Positions 21,175 to 31,301 of a stretch of 64,000 nt of DNA are shown here, one piece after another; position 1 is the first letter of the stretch; each line of letters opens with the position of its first letter. Below the pieces are notes generated by a model, which ran no database searches, was not told where the DNA came from, and saw only the letters and a list, made by a program, of their open reading frames with translations. The stretch lies in NCBI RefSeq assembly GCF_024436435.1, contig NZ_JAFMZP010000001.1, forward strand, positions 62,001 through 126,000. Direction: 5' to 3'. Position numbers and translations under genes: made by a program. This DNA is from Desertivirga xinjiangensis. Its GTDB lineage: Bacteria > Bacteroidota > Bacteroidia > Sphingobacteriales > Sphingobacteriaceae.

Positions 21175-21270
21175 TAAGTTTTAAGTATTATGTTTTAAGT
21201 TCTAAGTTCAGTATGCACAGCGAATTTTAAGGCGCCCATATTTATAACTTACAACTTATCACTTAGAACT
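21175..21270. repeat. Two opposed TAAGTTN heptamer arrays between adaptor and RND genes
   Basis: On the plus strand 21175-21209 holds five heptamers (TAAGTTT, TAAGTAT, TATGTTT, TAAGTTC, TAAGTTC) in perfect register. At 21241-21270 the minus strand reads TAAGTGA, TAAGTTG, TAAGTTA with partial units at both ends; the array runs into the adaptor stop codon. The two arrays are inverted relative to one another, so the mRNA of the operon could fold here. Confidence 0.65.
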
Positions 21271-22333
21271 ATTTCACTACCTGCACTTCAGTGCCATCGA
21301 CCAGGTTGATCTGTCCACTGGTGATCACCGTTTCACCTTCTTTAATTCCGTCCAGCACTTCAACACGGTCTCCAAGGATCCTGCCCGCCGTAACCTGGCG
21401 CTCCTTTGCCTGGTTGTTTTCAAGTACATATACCTTATTGCTATTTACACTGCCAACAAACGCAGTACGTGGCACTGTTAAGGCCGCATTCTGTTTGGGG
21501 AAGTCAAATACCGCGGTTCCGTACATCCCTGCTTTTAGCTGGCTGCCTGAACTGTTGCTCACTTCAACTTCAACAGGGAAGTTCAAGCTGGCATCAGCCT
21601 TAGGTGCGATGAAACTCACTCTTCCGCCGAACGAGCTGTTCGGGAATACGTTCGATTTTATCATTACCCTGTCGCCCATTCTCAGGTTTACTACCTGGTT
21701 CTCATTAGCGGTAACCTTAAGCTTAAGTTTGGATACATCCACAATTTCAAATAGTTGCGCACCGGGGTTTACATAAGAGCCTTGTTCGATAAAACGCTTA
21801 TTTATAATACCAGAGATCGGTGCTTTAATATTTGCGTCGTTTGATTTACGGCTTGCAGACTGAACCTTTGATTTTTCGGTTTGAACTTTGAGGCGTGCAT
21901 TGTCTAGCTCCTGCCGTGTAACACCTCCCGTTTTGAATGAACTTTCATAGCGTTCAAGATCACGTAAAGCATTCTGATAGTTTGCCTGTGCTGTTTGTGC
22001 ATCAACGTCAAGAAGCTCGTCGTCAATGCGGGCAAGGACCTGCCCTTTGCTGACCCTTGAACCTTCATCCACCAGGATCCTTGTTACACGTCCTGAATTC
22101 TCAGCTGAAAGTGTGAGATCCTGATTCGAAGCAAAAGTGCCATTAGAGCTGAAATCAAGATTGATATCAGATTTCGCTACTTTTTCAACATTTACAGCAA
22201 CTGCGCCAGTGCTTCCTTCGGCTACAACAGCTGTAGTTTCCGCATTTTTCTTTTTATTTTTTTGTAATACCGCAATTATCAATGCCAGCGTTGCAAGAAC
22301 TGCCACTATCGATATTATACCTTTCTTTGTCAT
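21269..22333 (-). CDS. RND efflux periplasmic adaptor (membrane fusion protein)
   Basis: 354 residues. One N-terminal hydrophobic helix (residues 5-24), then the half-lipoyl motif SGRVTRILVDEGSRVSKGQVLARIDDE, seen here in parts, a coiled-coil hairpin (QTAQANYQNALRDLERYES), the second lipoyl half IKAPISGIINKRFIEQGSYV, a beta-barrel domain and a membrane-proximal domain ending VDGTEVQVVK. It links the RND pump to the TolC-like channel. It starts 4 bp after the tolC-like stop, so these genes are in one transcript. Confidence 0.93.
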   Translation of the reverse strand: MTKKGIISIVAVLATLALIIAVLQKNKKKNAETTAVVAEGSTGAVAVNVEKVAKSDINLDFSSNGTFASNQDLTLSAENSGRVTRILVDEGSRVSKGQVLARIDDELLDVDAQTAQANYQNALRDLERYESSFKTGGVTRQELDNARLKVQTEKSKVQSASRKSNDANIKAPISGIINKRFIEQGSYVNPGAQLFEIVDVSKLKLKVTANENQVVNLRMGDRVMIKSNVFPNSSFGGRVSFIAPKADASLNFPVEVEVSNSSGSQLKAGMYGTAVFDFPKQNAALTVPRTAFVGSVNSNKVYVLENNQAKERQVTAGRILGDRVEVLDGIKEGETVITSGQINLVDGTEVQVVK

Positions 22334-22337
22334 CGTA

Positions 22338-23672
22338 TTAGTTTAAGAGTGATTTTATGTTTCCGTTCGATTTTATTAGCTGTATTTCAGCTACTTTATA
22401 ATTCAATAAGGCCTGTGAGTAATTGCTCTGTGCTGAGGTAAGAGCGTCTTCAGAATTGAGAAGATCGGTTAATGTTGCCAGCCCGTTATTGTAATTGTTT
22501 TGAGTGCTGTTATAAATTTCCTGGGCAAGCTTAACGTTCTCGTTTTGAGAGTTTATAGTGTTTAAGCTGTTCCTGATCTTCAATTTTGCATTTTCATATT
22601 CCAGGTTAAGTGTCTGAGCAGTGTTGCGGATATCCTCCTTGTTTTTTTGAATTTCAACTTCAGCCTGTCTTACTCTGGAACGGGTTGCGTTGCCATTAAA
22701 GATGGGTATACGTAATGTTAAGCCGATAGAAGAAGCATCATACCAAATGGCGCTTCCCCCTGACCTGTACAAATCGAAAGCATCACTTTGTCCTGTAGAC
22801 GTGAAGTTTCCGGTTAAGGCCAGGCTTGGATAATACTCAGCTTTATAGGCTTTCTTCTGAAGATCAAGTAAATTTTCCTGAGTTCTAATCAGCTTGTATT
22901 CTATGCGATTAGATAGATTGATACTATCCTGCAACTGAGCAACCGTCGATATGGTCGACAATTCTATTTCAGGAATAATAATAGTGTTTTCTACCGGCAT
23001 ACCAATGTTAAACTTAAGAGTGTTTTCCTGCTCGGTTATGGCGGTAGACAATTTCTCTCTTTCAATACTTAAATTTGAAATATTCACCTTCACGCGATCG
23101 AGATCAATCTTCTTAGCCAGGCCATTTTTGTATTTCGAAGCAATAATACTCTCGGTTCTTTGGGCGTTTTTGATGTTTGTCTCAATAACGGCAAGCTGTC
23201 TTCTGTTAACCAAAACCTGGTAATAAGCTGCAGAAACCTGTTCAATGATCTGCTCTTCACTCAAATTTGCACTCAGGTTATAATAATCTTCACTGGCTTT
23301 TGCCGCTTTTAGTCCTGTAAAAACCTGCTGGTTAAAAACTTGTTGATTTAGCTGTACACCTGCTGACGAGTTCCATTCCCGGCCCATTTGAAAAACCTGG
23401 TCCCCAACTACCAACTGACCGATGACAGGATTATAAGTCAAATTGCCTGTACCGGAAATCTGAGGCAAAGCTTCAGCTCGTATCTCCGCTACTCTGTGTC
23501 GTCCATTCTCAATGTCGAGCTTGGCCTTGCGTACCGTGGCATTGTTCTGAATCGCATAATTCAATGCATCTTTTAATGTCAGGGTAACAGTTTGTGCATT
23601 CGCCAGGCTCCCGCTGAGGATCGCCAGCAGCACCAATGCTACCTTTATCGATTTAAAATTTTTTGTGTTCAT
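22338..23672 (-). CDS. TolC-family outer-membrane efflux protein
   Basis: 444 residues. Signal peptide ending SLANAQT (residue about 27). Two OEP repeats of long helices: LKDALNYAIQNNATVRKAKLDIENGRHRVAEIRAE-type start, seen here in parts, and NNYNNGLATLTDLLNSEDALTSAQ near the C-terminus. This forms the trimeric channel through the outer membrane and the periplasmic tunnel of the pump. It lies between the tetR gene (20 bp gap) and the adaptor gene. Confidence 0.92.
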   Translation of the reverse strand: MNTKNFKSIKVALVLLAILSGSLANAQTVTLTLKDALNYAIQNNATVRKAKLDIENGRHRVAEIRAEALPQISGTGNLTYNPVIGQLVVGDQVFQMGREWNSSAGVQLNQQVFNQQVFTGLKAAKASEDYYNLSANLSEEQIIEQVSAAYYQVLVNRRQLAVIETNIKNAQRTESIIASKYKNGLAKKIDLDRVKVNISNLSIEREKLSTAITEQENTLKFNIGMPVENTIIIPEIELSTISTVAQLQDSINLSNRIEYKLIRTQENLLDLQKKAYKAEYYPSLALTGNFTSTGQSDAFDLYRSGGSAIWYDASSIGLTLRIPIFNGNATRSRVRQAEVEIQKNKEDIRNTAQTLNLEYENAKLKIRNSLNTINSQNENVKLAQEIYNSTQNNYNNGLATLTDLLNSEDALTSAQSNYSQALLNYKVAEIQLIKSNGNIKSLLN

Positions 23673-23692
23673 TGTTATTATATTCGTGATGT

Positions 23693-24304
23693 TTAGTTTT
23701 TTAATCCGTTCAGAAAGATCTCCGTCAGAGCTTTCTGCTTCGTTAATACTTCTTCAAAGCCTTTGCTCTCCGGCATCAGTTGCTTTTCCTGTTTCCCCAT
23801 CACGCACATACCCAGACCGATTATGGAGTCCATATAGAGTTCCGCGATTTGTTTGCTTTCATTAGCTTTCAATTCGCCTCTCTTTATACCAGTCTCAAAA
23901 AGATCTTTGATAAGGACATTTTCTTTTTCCCTGGTCTGCTGCATAAGTGCTTTAATCCCTTCGTGGTTAAGGTTCATATCCGAAGGCGTATCACCTATAT
24001 GGAGCATAAAGTATTTTTTGAAGAAGATTTTTCTTAGTTCAATAGTCTCGTTTAGTGCTTCCTGCACTGTCGCGCTTTTGAGTATTATATGTTCAAGCCG
24101 GGTAAAGAACTCATTGAAAATTCTCTCTGCAACAGCAATCACCAGGCTGATCTTGTCGGGGAAATAATAGTAAAGCGATGGCTTCGAAATCGCCAGGTCC
24201 TCTGCTATATCATTCATAGTCGTTTTATTGATGCCGAAATGCGCAAAACGCAATAAGGCCTTGTCTAAAATCAACTCCCGTTTTTTATCTGCAGCTTCTA
24301 TCAC
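23693..24304 (-). CDS. TetR-family repressor of the efflux operon
   Basis: 203 residues if translation begins at the GTG at 24302-24304. A longer frame opens at a TTG (24382), but its extra codons run through a 27-bp palindrome that looks like the operator, and the shorter start gives the usual 8-12 residues before the DNA-binding domain. The HTH is ALLRFAHFGINKTTMNDIAE followed by LAISKPSLYYYFPDKISL. The ligand-binding C-terminal half is variable as usual. As first gene of tetR-tolC-adaptor-RND it probably represses its own operon. It is paralogous to the neighbouring TetR. Confidence 0.85.
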   Translation of the reverse strand: MIEAADKKRELILDKALLRFAHFGINKTTMNDIAEDLAISKPSLYYYFPDKISLVIAVAERIFNEFFTRLEHIILKSATVQEALNETIELRKIFFKKYFMLHIGDTPSDMNLNHEGIKALMQQTREKENVLIKDLFETGIKRGELKANESKQIAELYMDSIIGLGMCVMGKQEKQLMPESKGFEEVLTKQKALTEIFLNGLKN

Positions 24305-24328
24305 TTTTACCTTTCTACTTTTAGACTG

Positions 24329-24355
24329 TTTGACTTTTTTAATTAAATAGTCAAA
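24329..24355. promoter_or_regulatory. Candidate TetR operator
   Basis: TTTGACT (24329-24335) and AGTCAAA (24349-24355) form a perfect inverted repeat around a 13-bp AT-rich spacer with a TTAATTAA core. It lies 25 bp before the proposed GTG start, where an autoregulatory operator would be expected. Confidence 0.55.
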
Positions 24356-24439
24356 AGTACAAACAATAGAAATTGCAGTCAATAGAAATATTGAAAAAGC
24401 AATGGTAAGTCGTTAAGATTACAGGTTAATGACGATTTG

Positions 24440-25024
24440 TTACAGGCCGTTCATGAAGATCTGGCCTAATTGCTTTTGCCGGCGCAGTACGATGTCAAAT
24501 TCCTCATCGTTTATAAGAAAAGTTTTTTTCCTACTAAATAAGGCCATTCGCATTCCCAGGAATGCATCGATCAGGAGTGAGGCTGCTTCAGTAGCCTTCG
24601 CCAGATCAATCTCCTTTTTTTGAATAGCCATAGAGATTTGTCTGACTTCGGTGTTCCTGGCATCTTCAAGTGTTTTTATCACTTGTGGAGGAAGGTCGGT
24701 TCCCGCAGTGCGGAGGAAATCAAGGATGTTATAGTATTTTTTTATATAGTAGTGGCGGCGGTCGATATAAAATGCAAGTGCTTCTTGTGGATCCTTAATG
24801 CTGCGCATTTTTTCCTCGATGTCTGTACTTACGATATTGATGATATTTTCTAAAACTGCAGCGTAGAGGTTTATTTTATCAGGAAAGTAATAATATAATA
24901 GGGCTTTAGACAGGGAAAGGTCAGAAGCGATTTCGGTCATAGTAGTTTTAGCTAAACCAAAATGAGCAAAACGTTTTACTGCAGCTTCGATGATCTGTTC
25001 TCTTTTCCTGTCCTGATTTTCCAT
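24440..25024 (-). CDS. Second TetR-family regulator
   Basis: 194 residues. HTH: VKRFAHFGLAKTTMTEIASD and LSLSKALLYYYFPDKINLYA, closely matching the neighbouring TetR (FAHFG.-KTTM..IA.DL..SK..LYYYFPDKI.L), so the two are tandem paralogues. The ATG is preceded at once by the stop of a 14-codon frame that begins with the same five codons, see 25025-25069. Its target is not evident: it may act on the efflux operon downstream, on hemH upstream, or only on itself. Confidence 0.87.
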   Translation of the reverse strand: MENQDRKREQIIEAAVKRFAHFGLAKTTMTEIASDLSLSKALLYYYFPDKINLYAAVLENIINIVSTDIEEKMRSIKDPQEALAFYIDRRHYYIKKYYNILDFLRTAGTDLPPQVIKTLEDARNTEVRQISMAIQKKEIDLAKATEAASLLIDAFLGMRMALFSRKKTFLINDEEFDIVLRRQKQLGQIFMNGL

Positions 25025-26350: not shown

Positions 26351-27019
26351 TTATTTAAGTTTCCATAAGAGCCACCATGGAGTGCCAGGCGAATCGTGGT
26401 GCTCATAATGATAACCAAAGAAATAGCAGGACAGGAATGCCACTACATGATTCTTTTTTTGTGTACGTGAATGGTGCTTATTGACGTGCTGGCCATGATG
26501 GGGGAGCCAGGTGCCAAAGTAAAACAATTGAAGGGTACTCAGCAAAGAGGGTATAACCCAGAAAAGAAGCAGGTTTATTTCATCTACCCAGGTCTTAAGG
26601 ATATTAAAAATCAGCGCGAGAATGAGAATCTGCCAGATGGAAAGGTATTCTTTCATAAACCTAACATACCAGGAAACAAAATTGCCATTGTGATAATCAG
26701 GGTCATCTTCAGAGTGAACGTGGCGGTGATGCTGGTGATGTTTTGTGTTCAGTTTGTTAAAGGGAAACGCAGCATACAAGCCAGTACAAATCTGACCAAT
26801 GACTCTGTTTAGGGGCCGGTCGGAAGATATGGTGCCATGCATTGCGTCGTGGGCTGTAATAAACAGGCCTGTGTATAAATGCATCTGCAGCAGGATCGCC
26901 AGATAGGTAAGAGGATTTTTAAAAGAAAAGTTCCAGCTTAACAGCAGGCAAAGGCTTACAGCCCAGGCGGTTATAAGCAGTATGGCTATTAAGACGCCCG
27001 TGTAGGATTTAAACTGCAT
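26351..27019 (-). CDS. crtW: CrtW-like beta-carotene ketolase / fatty-acid-desaturase-fold enzyme
   Basis: 222 residues with several hydrophobic helices. Histidine motifs in order: AHDAMHG (about residue 57), KHHQHHRHVHSEDDPDYHNG (about 93), FGTWLPHHGQHVNKHH (about 168) and GYHYEHHDSPGTPWWLLWK at the end. The HDAMHG, DPDY, FGTWLPH and EHH.SP..PWW set is that of CrtW 4,4'-ketolases rather than ordinary lipid desaturases. It would add keto groups to carotenoid rings. It ends an operon-like minus-strand series with ispH, a glycosyltransferase and an acyltransferase. A carotenoid hydroxylase-like role is the main alternative. Confidence 0.75.
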   Translation of the reverse strand: MQFKSYTGVLIAILLITAWAVSLCLLLSWNFSFKNPLTYLAILLQMHLYTGLFITAHDAMHGTISSDRPLNRVIGQICTGLYAAFPFNKLNTKHHQHHRHVHSEDDPDYHNGNFVSWYVRFMKEYLSIWQILILALIFNILKTWVDEINLLLFWVIPSLLSTLQLFYFGTWLPHHGQHVNKHHSRTQKKNHVVAFLSCYFFGYHYEHHDSPGTPWWLLWKLK

Positions 27020-27070
27020 GCAAAACGGTATATTGTTAAATTAAGCCGGTGTTGCCCCGGGCTTATATAA

Positions 27071-27919
27071 CTAAAAAGTCTCCAGGAGAGTTTTTACATT
27101 TTGCATAAGCCACATGGGAGTGGAAGTTGCGCCGCAAATTCCTACTCTATCACCAGGATTGAACATGGAGATATTTAATTCTTCCGGCTGGGAAATGAAC
27201 ATGGTCTCAGGGTTATGCTGTTTACAAACTTCGTAAAGAACTTTTCCGTTGGATGATTTCTTTCCAGATACAAACACGATCTTATCAAAGTTTTTGACAA
27301 ACTTAGCCAGGTCGTCATACCTGTTTGATACCTGGCGGCAAATGGTATCATTTGCTTTTACTTCGTAACCACGACTTAAAAGTTCAGCCTTGATCTGATA
27401 AAACTTATCGGTACTTTTGGTGGTCTGGCTGTAAAGCGTAAATTTTGAGGGGAGCTCGGCATGATCTAATTCACTGATGTCCTGGAAAACAAGTGCTTCA
27501 TTGTTTGTCTGTCCCTGTAAGCCGATCACTTCAGCGTGGCCATGTTTGCCAAAAATGAGGATCTTCTCTTCTGCATCGTGAGAGTTTTTTATGCGATTCT
27601 GTAGTTTAAGCACAACTGGGCAAGACGCGTCAATAAGCGTTATGTTTTTCTCCAGTGCTACTTTGTAAGTTTCGGGTGCTTCTCCATGTGCACGGATAAG
27701 CACTTTTTCGTTTGATAAAGACTCCAGGTCTTCATGCTTTATAATCCGGAGGCCTTTCGCTTTGAGACGTGCCACTTCTTCATCGTTGTGGACGATATCG
27801 CCCAGGCAATACAGATATCCGTCTTCGTCAAGGATCTCCTCCGCCATATCTATCGCGTACACTACACCGAAGCAGAAACCTGAATCCTGATCTATCTTTA
27901 CCTGAAGATTATAAGCCAT
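27071..27919 (-). CDS. ispH: 4-hydroxy-3-methylbut-2-enyl diphosphate reductase
   Basis: 282 residues. The three cluster cysteines are visible: GFCFGVVYAIDMAEE (residue about 16), DASCPVVLKLQ (about 98) and NDTICRQVSNRYDDL (about 191). Other family features: HGEAPETYK-type His region, TLYSQTTKSTD, and VSGKKSSNGKVLYE. It makes IPP and DMAPP in the last MEP step, feeding isoprenoids including carotenoids. 33 bp separate it from the glycosyltransferase stop upstream. Confidence 0.95.
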   Translation of the reverse strand: MAYNLQVKIDQDSGFCFGVVYAIDMAEEILDEDGYLYCLGDIVHNDEEVARLKAKGLRIIKHEDLESLSNEKVLIRAHGEAPETYKVALEKNITLIDASCPVVLKLQNRIKNSHDAEEKILIFGKHGHAEVIGLQGQTNNEALVFQDISELDHAELPSKFTLYSQTTKSTDKFYQIKAELLSRGYEVKANDTICRQVSNRYDDLAKFVKNFDKIVFVSGKKSSNGKVLYEVCKQHNPETMFISQPEELNISMFNPGDRVGICGATSTPMWLMQNVKTLLETF

Positions 27920-27923
27920 AATG

Positions 27924-27931
27924 CAAAATTA
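27924..27931 (-). promoter_or_regulatory. Candidate -7 box directly before ispH
   Basis: On the minus strand TAATTTTG lies 4 bp before the ispH ATG. If functional it would give ispH an internal, leaderless promoter within the longer gene series. Confidence 0.3.
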
Positions 27932-27952
27932 AACAAAAAAAAATTGAGAAAA

Positions 27953-29044
27953 TTAAGTACTAATAGTTCTTCCCTTCCAGTTAACTTTTCTAGTAACGTG
28001 TTTCTTTACTGAGATTACTGACAGTATGATGAATGATACCATCTGAAGCGGATGGAGAAAGATATTTAAAAATACGTTCTGTCCACTGGCAAATGAGATC
28101 ATGATGCGGCTTAGGATTATTAAGGTAAGGGCAAATGAAAGTAGCCCGGTATTCAAATAAATAGCTATAAAGACAGGGCCGGCCATTACCAATAGTAAAT
28201 AACAAAGAAGGCCTGCTATATTATTTCCAAACCCTGCAAGAAGGTTTTTACTAAAGCCATCCAAAGCCTCGCTATAACCCCTATACATGCGACAAAACAG
28301 ATAGCCATTAGCTAAAAGCGACTCCGTTTTATAGCGATAAGCTTTAATGAGTTTCATAATTTCGATATCTTCGACCACTTTATCTTTTACCTGGGCATGC
28401 CACAAATGCTTGTGATAGTTTGCAGCATCAAACATCATGAACTGGCCGCTGGCAGCGGAAAATGCTGGTTTATCGGATAACCGGACAAGACGAAGCGGGA
28501 GGGTGTTTAATAGTAAAAAATGCATGAGGGGCACTACCAGACGTTCTCCCGCAGAAGCCATGATCTGGTTAGCAAACAAGCTTAACAAAGTTAGCTTGCC
28601 GATCTTCATTCGGTGTAAGGTATTATTTATCAGCCCGTCTTTAACGATCTCATCAGCATCCAGAAAGAGTAAATATTTACCTTTTGCCTGTAAGGCCAGC
28701 TGATGGCATGCAAAGTTTTTTCCAAGCCAGTTCTCAGGTAGTTCATCTCCCCTGATTACATTAAAACGGCTGTCGCTTCGGCAGAAGTTATAACACACAT
28801 CAAAAGTATTGTCTGTAGAATCGTCATCGAGGATGATCACCTCAATATTCTGGTAATTTTGATCTTTCAGCGATTGCAACAATGTTATTATGCGTTCCTC
28901 CTCGTTACGGGCGGGTATAAGTATGGAAACCAAATGATCATAGGTTCTGGATGCTGCGGTAAGCTTCGGGTTAGAAATGAAATTGAACAGCGTAACTGTA
29001 AACCTCAGTATAAGAAAGAAAAAAACAACATAGAATATGAGCAT
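27953..29044 (-). CDS. Membrane-anchored GT2 glycosyltransferase (CruC/CrtQ-like)
   Basis: 363 residues. One N-terminal transmembrane helix, then a GT-A fold: VSILIPARNEEERIITLLQS, VIILDDDSTDNT, the metal-binding FLDADE, and KVVEDIEIMKLIKAYRYKTE with the acceptor-site ED. GDELPENWLGKNFACHQLA is a block typical of carotenoid and hopanoid-type glycosyltransferases. Three or more C-terminal helices follow. By family and by company (CrtW-like, IspH, acyltransferase) it may glycosylate a xanthophyll, but a lipid acceptor is possible. It starts 3 bp after the acyltransferase stop. Confidence 0.72.
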   Translation of the reverse strand: MLIFYVVFFFLILRFTVTLFNFISNPKLTAASRTYDHLVSILIPARNEEERIITLLQSLKDQNYQNIEVIILDDDSTDNTFDVCYNFCRSDSRFNVIRGDELPENWLGKNFACHQLALQAKGKYLLFLDADEIVKDGLINNTLHRMKIGKLTLLSLFANQIMASAGERLVVPLMHFLLLNTLPLRLVRLSDKPAFSAASGQFMMFDAANYHKHLWHAQVKDKVVEDIEIMKLIKAYRYKTESLLANGYLFCRMYRGYSEALDGFSKNLLAGFGNNIAGLLCYLLLVMAGPVFIAIYLNTGLLSFALTLIILSRIMISFASGQNVFLNIFLHPLQMVSFIILSVISVKKHVTRKVNWKGRTIST

Positions 29045-29047
29045 CGT

Positions 29048-29659
29048 TTATATTGTAATCCGGCATTGCTGCTGCCGTGAGTTTTTATAGTGAACATTAT
29101 AGGCACTTTGTATCAATGCTAAATTGTCTAAGTCTGCGTAATCATGATTCTGCAGATAACAAGTTACCAGTGGTTTCGGTGTGTCAAAATAATCAACGAA
29201 AGTAGCAGCAAAAAGGTATTGAAAATTTTTGGAAGAATGATCTATTACTCTGGATAATCCTTTGCCAAACTCTATTTGCTCCAGGTGGTTTGAGAATAGT
29301 TTTCCCTGGGGGAAGATGAGAAGCAGGTTGTTTTTATCGTTAAGCAGTCGTCCGGCCAACACCAAAGTATGTAACATATCCCTCGATTGTTTTTTTATCG
29401 GAAATGCTCCCAGATATTTTAGAAAAGATATGTTTTTATAATTTTCATCTGTTACCATGACATGGAACCTTCGTTTGAAAAAAACTTTGTTGAGGTGGAA
29501 CATAAGAAAGCCGTCCCACCACGAGAAGTGGTTAGCAACAAGCAGAATAGCTTTGCTTTCATTCAACGTGACAGTGTTGAAAGTAAAGGATTCGAAGTTC
29601 CGGCTAATTAAAAAACTGATATATTTATTAAAGAAAATGTATACAAGCCTTTTTATCAT
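29048..29659 (-). CDS. PlsC-like (1-acyl-glycerol-3-phosphate type) acyltransferase
   Basis: 203 residues from the ATG at 29659; an earlier TTG only 6 bp up is less likely. The HX4D motif is ANHFSWWDGF and the second block is FPQGKLFSNH (FPEGT in the family), so the catalytic pair is present. The short length and the tight link to the GT2 gene recall CruD, which acylates carotenoid glycosides in green sulfur bacteria; ordinary lysophospholipid acylation is the alternative. pruA ends 7 bp upstream. Confidence 0.75.
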   Translation of the reverse strand: MIKRLVYIFFNKYISFLISRNFESFTFNTVTLNESKAILLVANHFSWWDGFLMFHLNKVFFKRRFHVMVTDENYKNISFLKYLGAFPIKKQSRDMLHTLVLAGRLLNDKNNLLLIFPQGKLFSNHLEQIEFGKGLSRVIDHSSKNFQYLFAATFVDYFDTPKPLVTCYLQNHDYADLDNLALIQSAYNVHYKNSRQQQCRITI

Positions 29660-29666
29660 ATGCAAT

Positions 29667-31301
29667 TTACTTATCGTGCATAAATGGGTATCTGTAATCT
29701 GTAGGTGGGTCGAAGGTTTCTTTTATCGCCCTTGATGATACCCAGCGCAGTAAATTGATCATGGAGCCGGCCTTATCGTTAGTGCCCGAACCCCTGGCTC
29801 CGCCAAAAGGTTGCTGACCCACTACTGCACCCGTACATTTATCGTTGATGTAGAAATTGCCGGCGGCATTGCGCAAAGCATGGCTGGCTTTCTCTATAGC
29901 ATAGCGGTCTTTTGCAATGACAGCCCCTGTCAGAGCGTAAATGGATGTTTGGTCGATAAGTTGAAGCGTTTTTTCAAAGTCGGTATCTTCATAAACATAA
30001 ATACTTAGTACCGGCCCAAAAAGCTCTTCGCACATCGTGACATAATGCGGGTCTTTGGTGACGATCACCGTTGGTTCAATAAAGTAACCTTCGGCTTTAT
30101 TGTAGTTCCCGCCTGAAATGATTTCAAGGGTAGGATCTGCTTTCGCTTCGTCAATAGCTTTAGCCAGCTTATCAAAGGATTTTTCATCGATAACGGCATT
30201 CAGGAAATTGCTAAAATCTTCGGCAGGTCCCATTTTTAAGGAAGAAAGGTCTGCCAACATCAACTCTCTGATCTGAGGCCAGACTGAACGGGCGATATAC
30301 ACACGCGAAGCGGCAGAACACTTTTGTCCCTGGTATTCAAAAGCGGCACGAATAATGGCGGTGTTGGCTGCTTTTACATCTGCCGAATCATGCACCAGTA
30401 TGAAATCTTTTCCTCCGGTTTCGCCTACTATGCGAGGGTAGCTTTTGTACAGATGTATGTTGTTGCCGATGGTTTGCCAGATTTCCCGGAATACTTTGGT
30501 AGACCCCGTAAAATGAATGCCTGCAAAGTCCGGATGGTTAAAAATCACTTCTCCGGCATCGGGCCCATTCACGTATATCAGGTTAATAACTCCATCTGGT
30601 AAACCGGCTTCTTTAAAAATCTGCATGATCATGTTAGCAGCAAGGATCTGGGTATCGGCAGGCTTCCATACTACCACATTTCCCATAAGAGCGACCGAAG
30701 AAGGCAGGTTGCCTGCGATGGCTGTAAAGTTGAAAGGGGTTAGTGCAAATACGAAGCCCTCAAGGGGACGTTGTTCTACACGATTCCATGTACCACGCGG
30801 CGAAACAGGGGGCTGCTGCGAATAGATCTCGGACATGTACTGAACGTTGAAGCGCAAAAAGTCGATCAATTCGCAGGCGGAGTCGATTTCTGCCTGGTAG
30901 GCATTTTTAGATTGCCCTACCATGGTGAGTGCATTCAATTTGAAACGATAGGGGCCGGCGATAAGGTCGGCCGCCTTTAAAAATATGGATGCCCTGTGTT
31001 CCCAGGAAAGCGTTTCCCAGGAAGCTTTAGCGGTTAAAGCTGCATTAATAGCATCCAGGACATGGCTTTTATCGCCACGGTGAAATTGTGCGACCACCTG
31101 TTTATGATTGTGAGGAGGACGGATCTCTATACGCTGGCCGGTATAAACGTCCTGGCCGCCAATATGCATCGGAATATCGGCCTGGTGCAGGTACACTTCA
31201 GCAATAGCCTGCTTAAGTTTTTCCCGTTCTGCACTTTGCGGAGCATAGCTTAAGGCGGGTTCATTAACCGGAACCGGCACTTTAAAAAATCCTTTATTCA
31301 T
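29667..31301 (-). CDS. pruA: 1-pyrroline-5-carboxylate dehydrogenase
   Basis: 544 residues, the length of the stand-alone P5C dehydrogenase (RocA/ALDH4A1-like) form. FALTPFNFTAIAGNLPSSVA and HFTGSTKVFREIW mark the NAD site; GETGGKDFILV carries the catalytic Glu and YQGQKCSAASRVYI the catalytic Cys. It oxidises glutamate semialdehyde to glutamate in proline breakdown. Only 7 bp separate it from the acyltransferase gene, so proline catabolism and the putative carotenoid genes may share a transcript; no proline dehydrogenase is in the window. Confidence 0.94.
   Translation of the reverse strand: MNKGFFKVPVPVNEPALSYAPQSAEREKLKQAIAEVYLHQADIPMHIGGQDVYTGQRIEIRPPHNHKQVVAQFHRGDKSHVLDAINAALTAKASWETLSWEHRASIFLKAADLIAGPYRFKLNALTMVGQSKNAYQAEIDSACELIDFLRFNVQYMSEIYSQQPPVSPRGTWNRVEQRPLEGFVFALTPFNFTAIAGNLPSSVALMGNVVVWKPADTQILAANMIMQIFKEAGLPDGVINLIYVNGPDAGEVIFNHPDFAGIHFTGSTKVFREIWQTIGNNIHLYKSYPRIVGETGGKDFILVHDSADVKAANTAIIRAAFEYQGQKCSAASRVYIARSVWPQIRELMLADLSSLKMGPAEDFSNFLNAVIDEKSFDKLAKAIDEAKADPTLEIISGGNYNKAEGYFIEPTVIVTKDPHYVTMCEELFGPVLSIYVYEDTDFEKTLQLIDQTSIYALTGAVIAKDRYAIEKASHALRNAAGNFYINDKCTGAVVGQQPFGGARGSGTNDKAGSMINLLRWVSSRAIKETFDPPTDYRYPFMHDK

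Follow-up and report, generated by a model that had tools for sequence, protein, structure and literature searches.

CruC and CruD carry out carotenoid tailoring in green sulfur bacteria, and CruF and CruG belong to the cyanobacterial pathway of myxol glycoside synthesis. CruC and CruD have also been proposed for similar chemistry in salinixanthin formation in Rhodothermus and Salinibacter (PMC5822342, accessible text), and genes for the flexixanthin aglycone have been proposed in Algoriphagus (PMC10784355, accessible text). Here we analyse a 64,000-nucleotide stretch of DNA from Desertivirga xinjiangensis, hereafter the window (G000:C11:62001-126000, within a 5.5 Mb genome rated 99.98% complete), which encodes a PlsC-like acyltransferase (AT), a membrane family 2 glycosyltransferase (GT2) and a CrtW-like ketolase, together with ispH and pruA. 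AT, GT2 and the CrtW-like protein very probably perform late carotenoid steps and stem from a scattered carotenoid cluster of Bacteroidota and Ignavibacteriota. Profile identities, gene order, synteny and co-occurrence lead to this reading, and from them we infer substrates, step order, sugar, acyl chain and biological role. The kind of system is already known; the gene order is this member's own. Along the minus strand the features are:

29667..31301, minus strand: pruA, L-glutamate gamma-semialdehyde dehydrogenase, 544 amino acids (aa); TIGR01236, 799.8 bits (cut-off 613.6)
29048..29665, minus strand: PlsC-like acyltransferase (AT), 205 aa counted from a TTG; PF01553, 37.8 bits (cut-off 23)
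27953..29044, minus strand: membrane family 2 glycosyltransferase (GT2), 363 aa; PF00535, 86.4 bits (cut-off 23.3)
27920..27952, minus strand: GT2-ispH junction, 33 bp, the site of cruF in relatives
27071..27919, minus strand: ispH, HMBPP reductase, 282 aa; NF002187, 355.1 bits (cut-off 276), with TIGR00216 also over its cut-off
26351..27019, minus strand: CrtW-like beta-ring 4-ketolase, 222 aa; PF00487, 73.2 bits (cut-off 29.7), and NF045690, 239 bits
25166..26182, minus strand: hemH, ferrochelatase (PF00762), with a function of its own and in the same place in most family loci

The sequence-only reading of this DNA had described five minus-strand genes, from pruA to the CrtW-like gene, with gaps of 7, 3, 33 and 51 bp. 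Open reading frames and profile matches confirm this arrangement when AT is taken from an in-frame ATG at 29659, its likely start, which yields the 7-bp gap to pruA. The best NCBIfam model for the CrtW-like protein is NF045690 (E value 5e-71, 239 bits against a cut-off of 350), and the protein carries the histidine motifs HDAMHG, HHQHH and HYEHH. The catalytic acidic residues of GT2 are present (D74, D129, D131, E225 and D226), and an HX4D motif is found in 90 of 90 extracted AT sequences. Both proteins exceed the cut-offs of general Pfam domains only, and the specific models closest to GT2 are HpnB and CruG; the NCBIfam scan of the two listed no model named CruC or CruD, and in a profile search against solved structures GT2 matched GT2 domains of other functions and AT had no match.

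Compared with the described systems, the locus shares with CruC/CruD-type tailoring a membrane glycosyltransferase with intact catalytic acidic residues and the pairing of that enzyme with a PlsC-like acyltransferase; hydratase, desaturase and ketolase are encoded with the pair in relatives, and here the window holds CrtW with the rest elsewhere in the genome. As in the CruF/CruG system, a CruF-type hydratase adjoins a membrane GT2 in relatives, but the GT2 of the window scores far below the cut-off for CruG, a 2'-O-glycosyltransferase (NF045692, 100.2 bits versus 600), as does the host CruF for the model of the cyanobacterial one (NF045693, 28.7 bits versus 400). As proposed for CruC and CruD, the predicted glycosyltransferase and acyltransferase would take the final steps, starting from a 1'-hydroxy monocyclic carotenoid with a keto group (PMC5822342, accessible text). 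According to the same text, Rhodothermus has CrtY and CrtO, no CrtC or CruF homologue was found there, and cruC lies apart from the cluster; the host studied here differs in having CrtYcd, CrtW, CruF and an AT-GT2 pair side by side. The crtB, crtI, cruF, crtD, crtYcd and crtW types of the flexixanthin proposal are shared with the host genome, to which AT and GT2 are added and in which no crtZ was identified, and the accessible text of that paper contains neither 'glycosyl' nor 'acyltransferase' (PMC10784355).

The surroundings of GT2 were compared across a family survey of 151 Sphingobacteriaceae genomes and a locus set made up of 40 fetched stretches and 80 named loci, the latter being the best 80 of a longer list. 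After five duplicates and one incomplete locus (L049) had been dropped, 84 family-level loci, including the window, and 24 distant ones were separated by locus number and identity rather than with a taxonomy tool. The usual family order is (crtD)-AT-GT2-cruF-ispH-crtW-hemH, seen in Pedobacter, Mucilaginibacter, Daejeonella and other relatives, with losses in some. Of the 84 loci, 68 have AT directly upstream of GT2, 78 have ispH downstream and 55 have CrtW no more than 3.5 kb away, so the arrangement is more than chance; cruF follows downstream in 67 and crtD stands within 3.5 kb in 22. Figures for crtI inside a 10 kb range were set aside, since they take in cross-hits to crtD. Across the 151 genomes, GT2 has a strong match in 89 (94 less five weak ones, G007, G021, G032, G049 and G119), and genomes with a match number 79 for the CrtW-like protein, 84 for PF04240, the cruF family, and 121 for PF00494, the crtB type. 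GT2 and cruF occur together in 78 genomes and are both missing from 56; for GT2 and crtW the corresponding numbers are 78 and 61. Shared ancestry is not accounted for in these counts. Where GT2 and cruF co-occur, they lie within 400 bp of each other in 77 of the 78 genomes, the exception being the window's own; the two surveyed sisters in its genus retain cruF at the usual place. In one genus (g20), crtB is on GT2's contig, 10-18 kb away, in five of six GT2-bearing genomes, and on another contig in the sixth (G075). Some Mucilaginibacter loci, such as L092, L096, L109 and L122, have a second, more distant PlsC-like acyltransferase before the first.

The sequence-only reading had noted that the window holds no carotenoid backbone genes, and matches to PF00494 (crtB type) and TIGR02734 (crtI type) indeed fall outside it only. 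The genome check that it proposed for crtB, crtI and crtY recovered a PF00494 gene, CrtID and the lycopene cyclase CrtYcd; the search covered crtB, crtI and crtYcd types, crtE not being among the genes sought. The single PF00494 gene is on contig C21 and adjoins an isopentenyl-diphosphate isomerase gene (idi) over cut-off. We read its product as phytoene synthase because it is the only PF00494 gene, idi adjoins it and the genome has no hopene cyclase match. Contig C2 carries CrtID over cut-off and CrtYcd, and CrtD, also over cut-off, lies elsewhere on C21. A single cruF, encoding a carotenoid 1',2'-hydratase (PF04240 over cut-off), is found at C11:401800-402438, about 312 kb from GT2 and outside the window. 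No crtZ was identified: PF04116 is represented three times in the genome, by a copy adjoining crtI that has no NCBIfam match and by two others that were not scanned. The ring may therefore lack a 3-hydroxyl. In this genome crtB is displaced from its usual crtI-crtYcd slot and now stands with idi (L002:8721-10102; L012:8915-11765, contigs C21 and C2); in a small tree, where its placement is weak, the starred clade of six family crtB genes does not include it. Before crtYcd stands a gene for a conserved protein some 170-190 aa long (L012:10574-11083, L048:3277-3843, L052:14790-15302), and the L012 copy, when scanned, gave no Pfam or NCBIfam match. A PF01036 rhodopsin is over cut-off in 24 of the 151 genomes, 20 of them with GT2 and 22 with cruF (loci L171-L178). 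The window's host genome has no PF01036 match, and a rhodopsin antenna was rejected for that organism on this ground.

Together, these genes suggest a route whose most likely product is an acylated glycoside of a 4-keto, 1'-hydroxy monocyclic carotenoid, similar to salinixanthin. Phytoene would be made by CrtB, desaturated by CrtID and cyclized at one end by CrtYcd. CruF would then hydrate the 1',2' position, placing a 1'-hydroxyl on the open end of the monocyclic carotenoid, CrtD would introduce the 3',4' double bond, and CrtW would add the 4-keto group to the ring. A CruC-like GT2 would transfer a sugar to the 1'-hydroxyl, and a CruD-like AT a fatty acid to that sugar. The product would be held in the membrane, where it probably gives photo-oxidative protection.

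Distant relatives of GT2 indicate how the window block may have arisen. They share 39-48% identity with it and occur in Bacteroidales, Ignavibacteriota and other Bacteroidota. Of the 24 loci examined, many of them on short contigs, 21 have AT upstream, 22 have cruF at most 3.5 kb away, 13 have crtB at most 10 kb away and none has ispH. Several of these Bacteroidota and Ignavibacteriota have the AT-GT2 pair clustered with crtB, crtI, crtYcd and crtD, and two loci (L149 and L164) present crtI-crtB-crtYcd-crtD-AT-GT2-cruF-crtW in one row. AT and GT2 thus accompany carotenoid genes even away from the ispH locus; the window block is best regarded as part of an older, broken-up cluster. It has the appearance of a fragment split off from that cluster, whose genes are scattered in this genome, rather than of a new kind of system. 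The sequence-only reading had instead proposed a separate tailoring island; gene order in relatives identifies a rearranged part of something larger.

What this piece lacks is cruF, whose product forms the hydroxyl for glycosylation; the gene is gone from the window locus and located elsewhere, beyond the view of the sequence-only reading. The tree gives no verdict on a foreign origin of the displaced cruF: CruF evolves fast (identity between the two genus sisters is 48%), and no starred set within half the rows contains this gene. At its present site (L068:4853-9817) cruF is flanked by apparent uptake-locus proteins, a DUF4397 lipoprotein-like protein and PepSY_TM, and the open reading frames listed there give no sign of a transposase.

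Several observations weigh against carotenoid tailoring by these enzymes. The co-occurrence counts take no account of shared ancestry. Five genomes that are 99-100% complete have GT2 beside ispH with no crtB, cruF or crtW match (G004, G014, G029, G057 and G115), the Mucilaginibacter orphan GT2s retain the catalytic residues checked, and six genomes have cruF without GT2. The likeness to CruC and CruD is one of predicted function and context, and GT2 is far below the cut-offs for CruG and HpnB. The other assignments are also imperfect: the best NCBIfam model for the crtB protein is HpnD, under its cut-off, CruF is below the TIGR03460 cut-off (72.2 versus 154.7), and the CrtW-like protein scores below the cut-off of its own model.

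One way to account for the orphan genes is a double role for GT2, with carotenoids and a second lipid as its substrates, the second role explaining its retention after loss of the pathway. We consider this unlikely, although the Mucilaginibacter-clade orphans, with their residues kept, also have ordinary branch lengths. Three distinct GT2s from the clade that includes Solitalea agri lack the ED pair and have GE or SE instead (L067, L069 and L080), which suggests decay, and no second substrate is known. A fourth GT2 of that clade retains the residues checked; because it and the Mucilaginibacter orphans do so, a second substrate is possible.

Less probable still, at roughly half the weight that we give to a double role, is that GT2 and AT make some other membrane glycolipid, whether a hopanoid, a glycerolipid or another polyprenoid, and lie near carotenoid genes by way of the ispH locus. 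HpnB (TIGR03469) is indeed the best NCBIfam model for GT2, but at 105 bits versus a cut-off of 379.25; AT resembles lysophospholipid acyltransferases; and GT2 is kept in the five genomes without crtB, cruF or crtW. The association with the ispH locus does not hold among the 24 distant loci, where the AT-GT2 pair keeps the company of cruF in 22 and that of ispH in none. A hopanoid role was rejected on the HpnB cut-off and on the absence of a squalene-hopene cyclase match (PF13249) in the genome. The sequence-only reading was to be given up if GT2 and AT grouped with phospholipid or hopanoid enzymes, or if the genome had no backbone genes; in the event backbone genes are present, and both proteins score far below the hopanoid and phospholipid model cut-offs. 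Late carotenoid steps remain our preferred assignment for AT, GT2 and the CrtW-like protein.

The idea of a dedicated operon, with local isoprenoid supply by ispH and a functional link to pruA, has the 7-bp pruA-AT gap in its favour but is scarcely credible, given that ispH is the sole match in the genome, that panB and a pseudouridine synthase gene lie upstream of AT in the two genus sisters, and that no pruA match occurs in 120 other stretches (each at most 20 kb, so that a pruA farther off would escape). Since the genome contains a single LYTB match, ispH is a housekeeping enzyme, and the idea of a dedicated second copy was rejected. The sequence-only reading had proposed an acylated keto-carotenoid glycoside made from locally supplied units, with an unexpected pairing to pruA. 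Ketolation, glycosylation and acylation are supported by the company that AT and GT2 keep with cruF, crtD and crtW and, at a distance, with crtB, crtI and crtYcd, whereas local supply and the pruA pairing, like the island, are not. As judged from gene neighbourhoods, pruA is probably a neighbour in this genome and not part of the system, and its position needs no metabolic explanation.

Beyond hemH, on the minus strand at 21269-25024 of the window, are two TetR-type regulators, an outer membrane efflux protein and an HlyD-type adaptor, an ordinary efflux set. A scan for the Bacteroidota-type promoter (TTG, 17-22 bases, TAnnTTTG) gave 3 and 4 matches per strand versus about 4.1 expected in shuffles; because the counts are no higher than in shuffles, a match upstream of hemH is no evidence of a promoter. 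Upstream of ispH the downstream half-site alone is present.

In the literature we recognized no description of this cluster, or of an acylated carotenoid glycoside, in Sphingobacteriaceae, in a full-text search whose coverage leaves out most subscription journals. A broader proposal is tentative, and we hold it to be somewhat less likely than not to be right in all its parts: that acylated 4-keto carotenoid 1'-glycosides resembling salinixanthin are widespread products of Pedobacter, Mucilaginibacter, Daejeonella and their relatives, that AT-GT2 is an old module of Bacteroidota and Ignavibacteriota, that the pigment may be a light-harvesting antenna in rhodopsin-bearing relatives, and that GT2 has gained a carotenoid-independent role in some genomes without the pathway. 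If the preferred assignment to late carotenoid steps is right, two genes that so far have generic annotations, as glycosyltransferase and phospholipid-type acyltransferase, would gain a role in carotenoid tailoring in much of a large environmental family and also outside it. A glycosylated, acylated keto-carotenoid would be predicted where the literature search turned up none, and the genome studied here would provide a natural experiment, in which the hydroxyl-making step has left an otherwise fixed operon.

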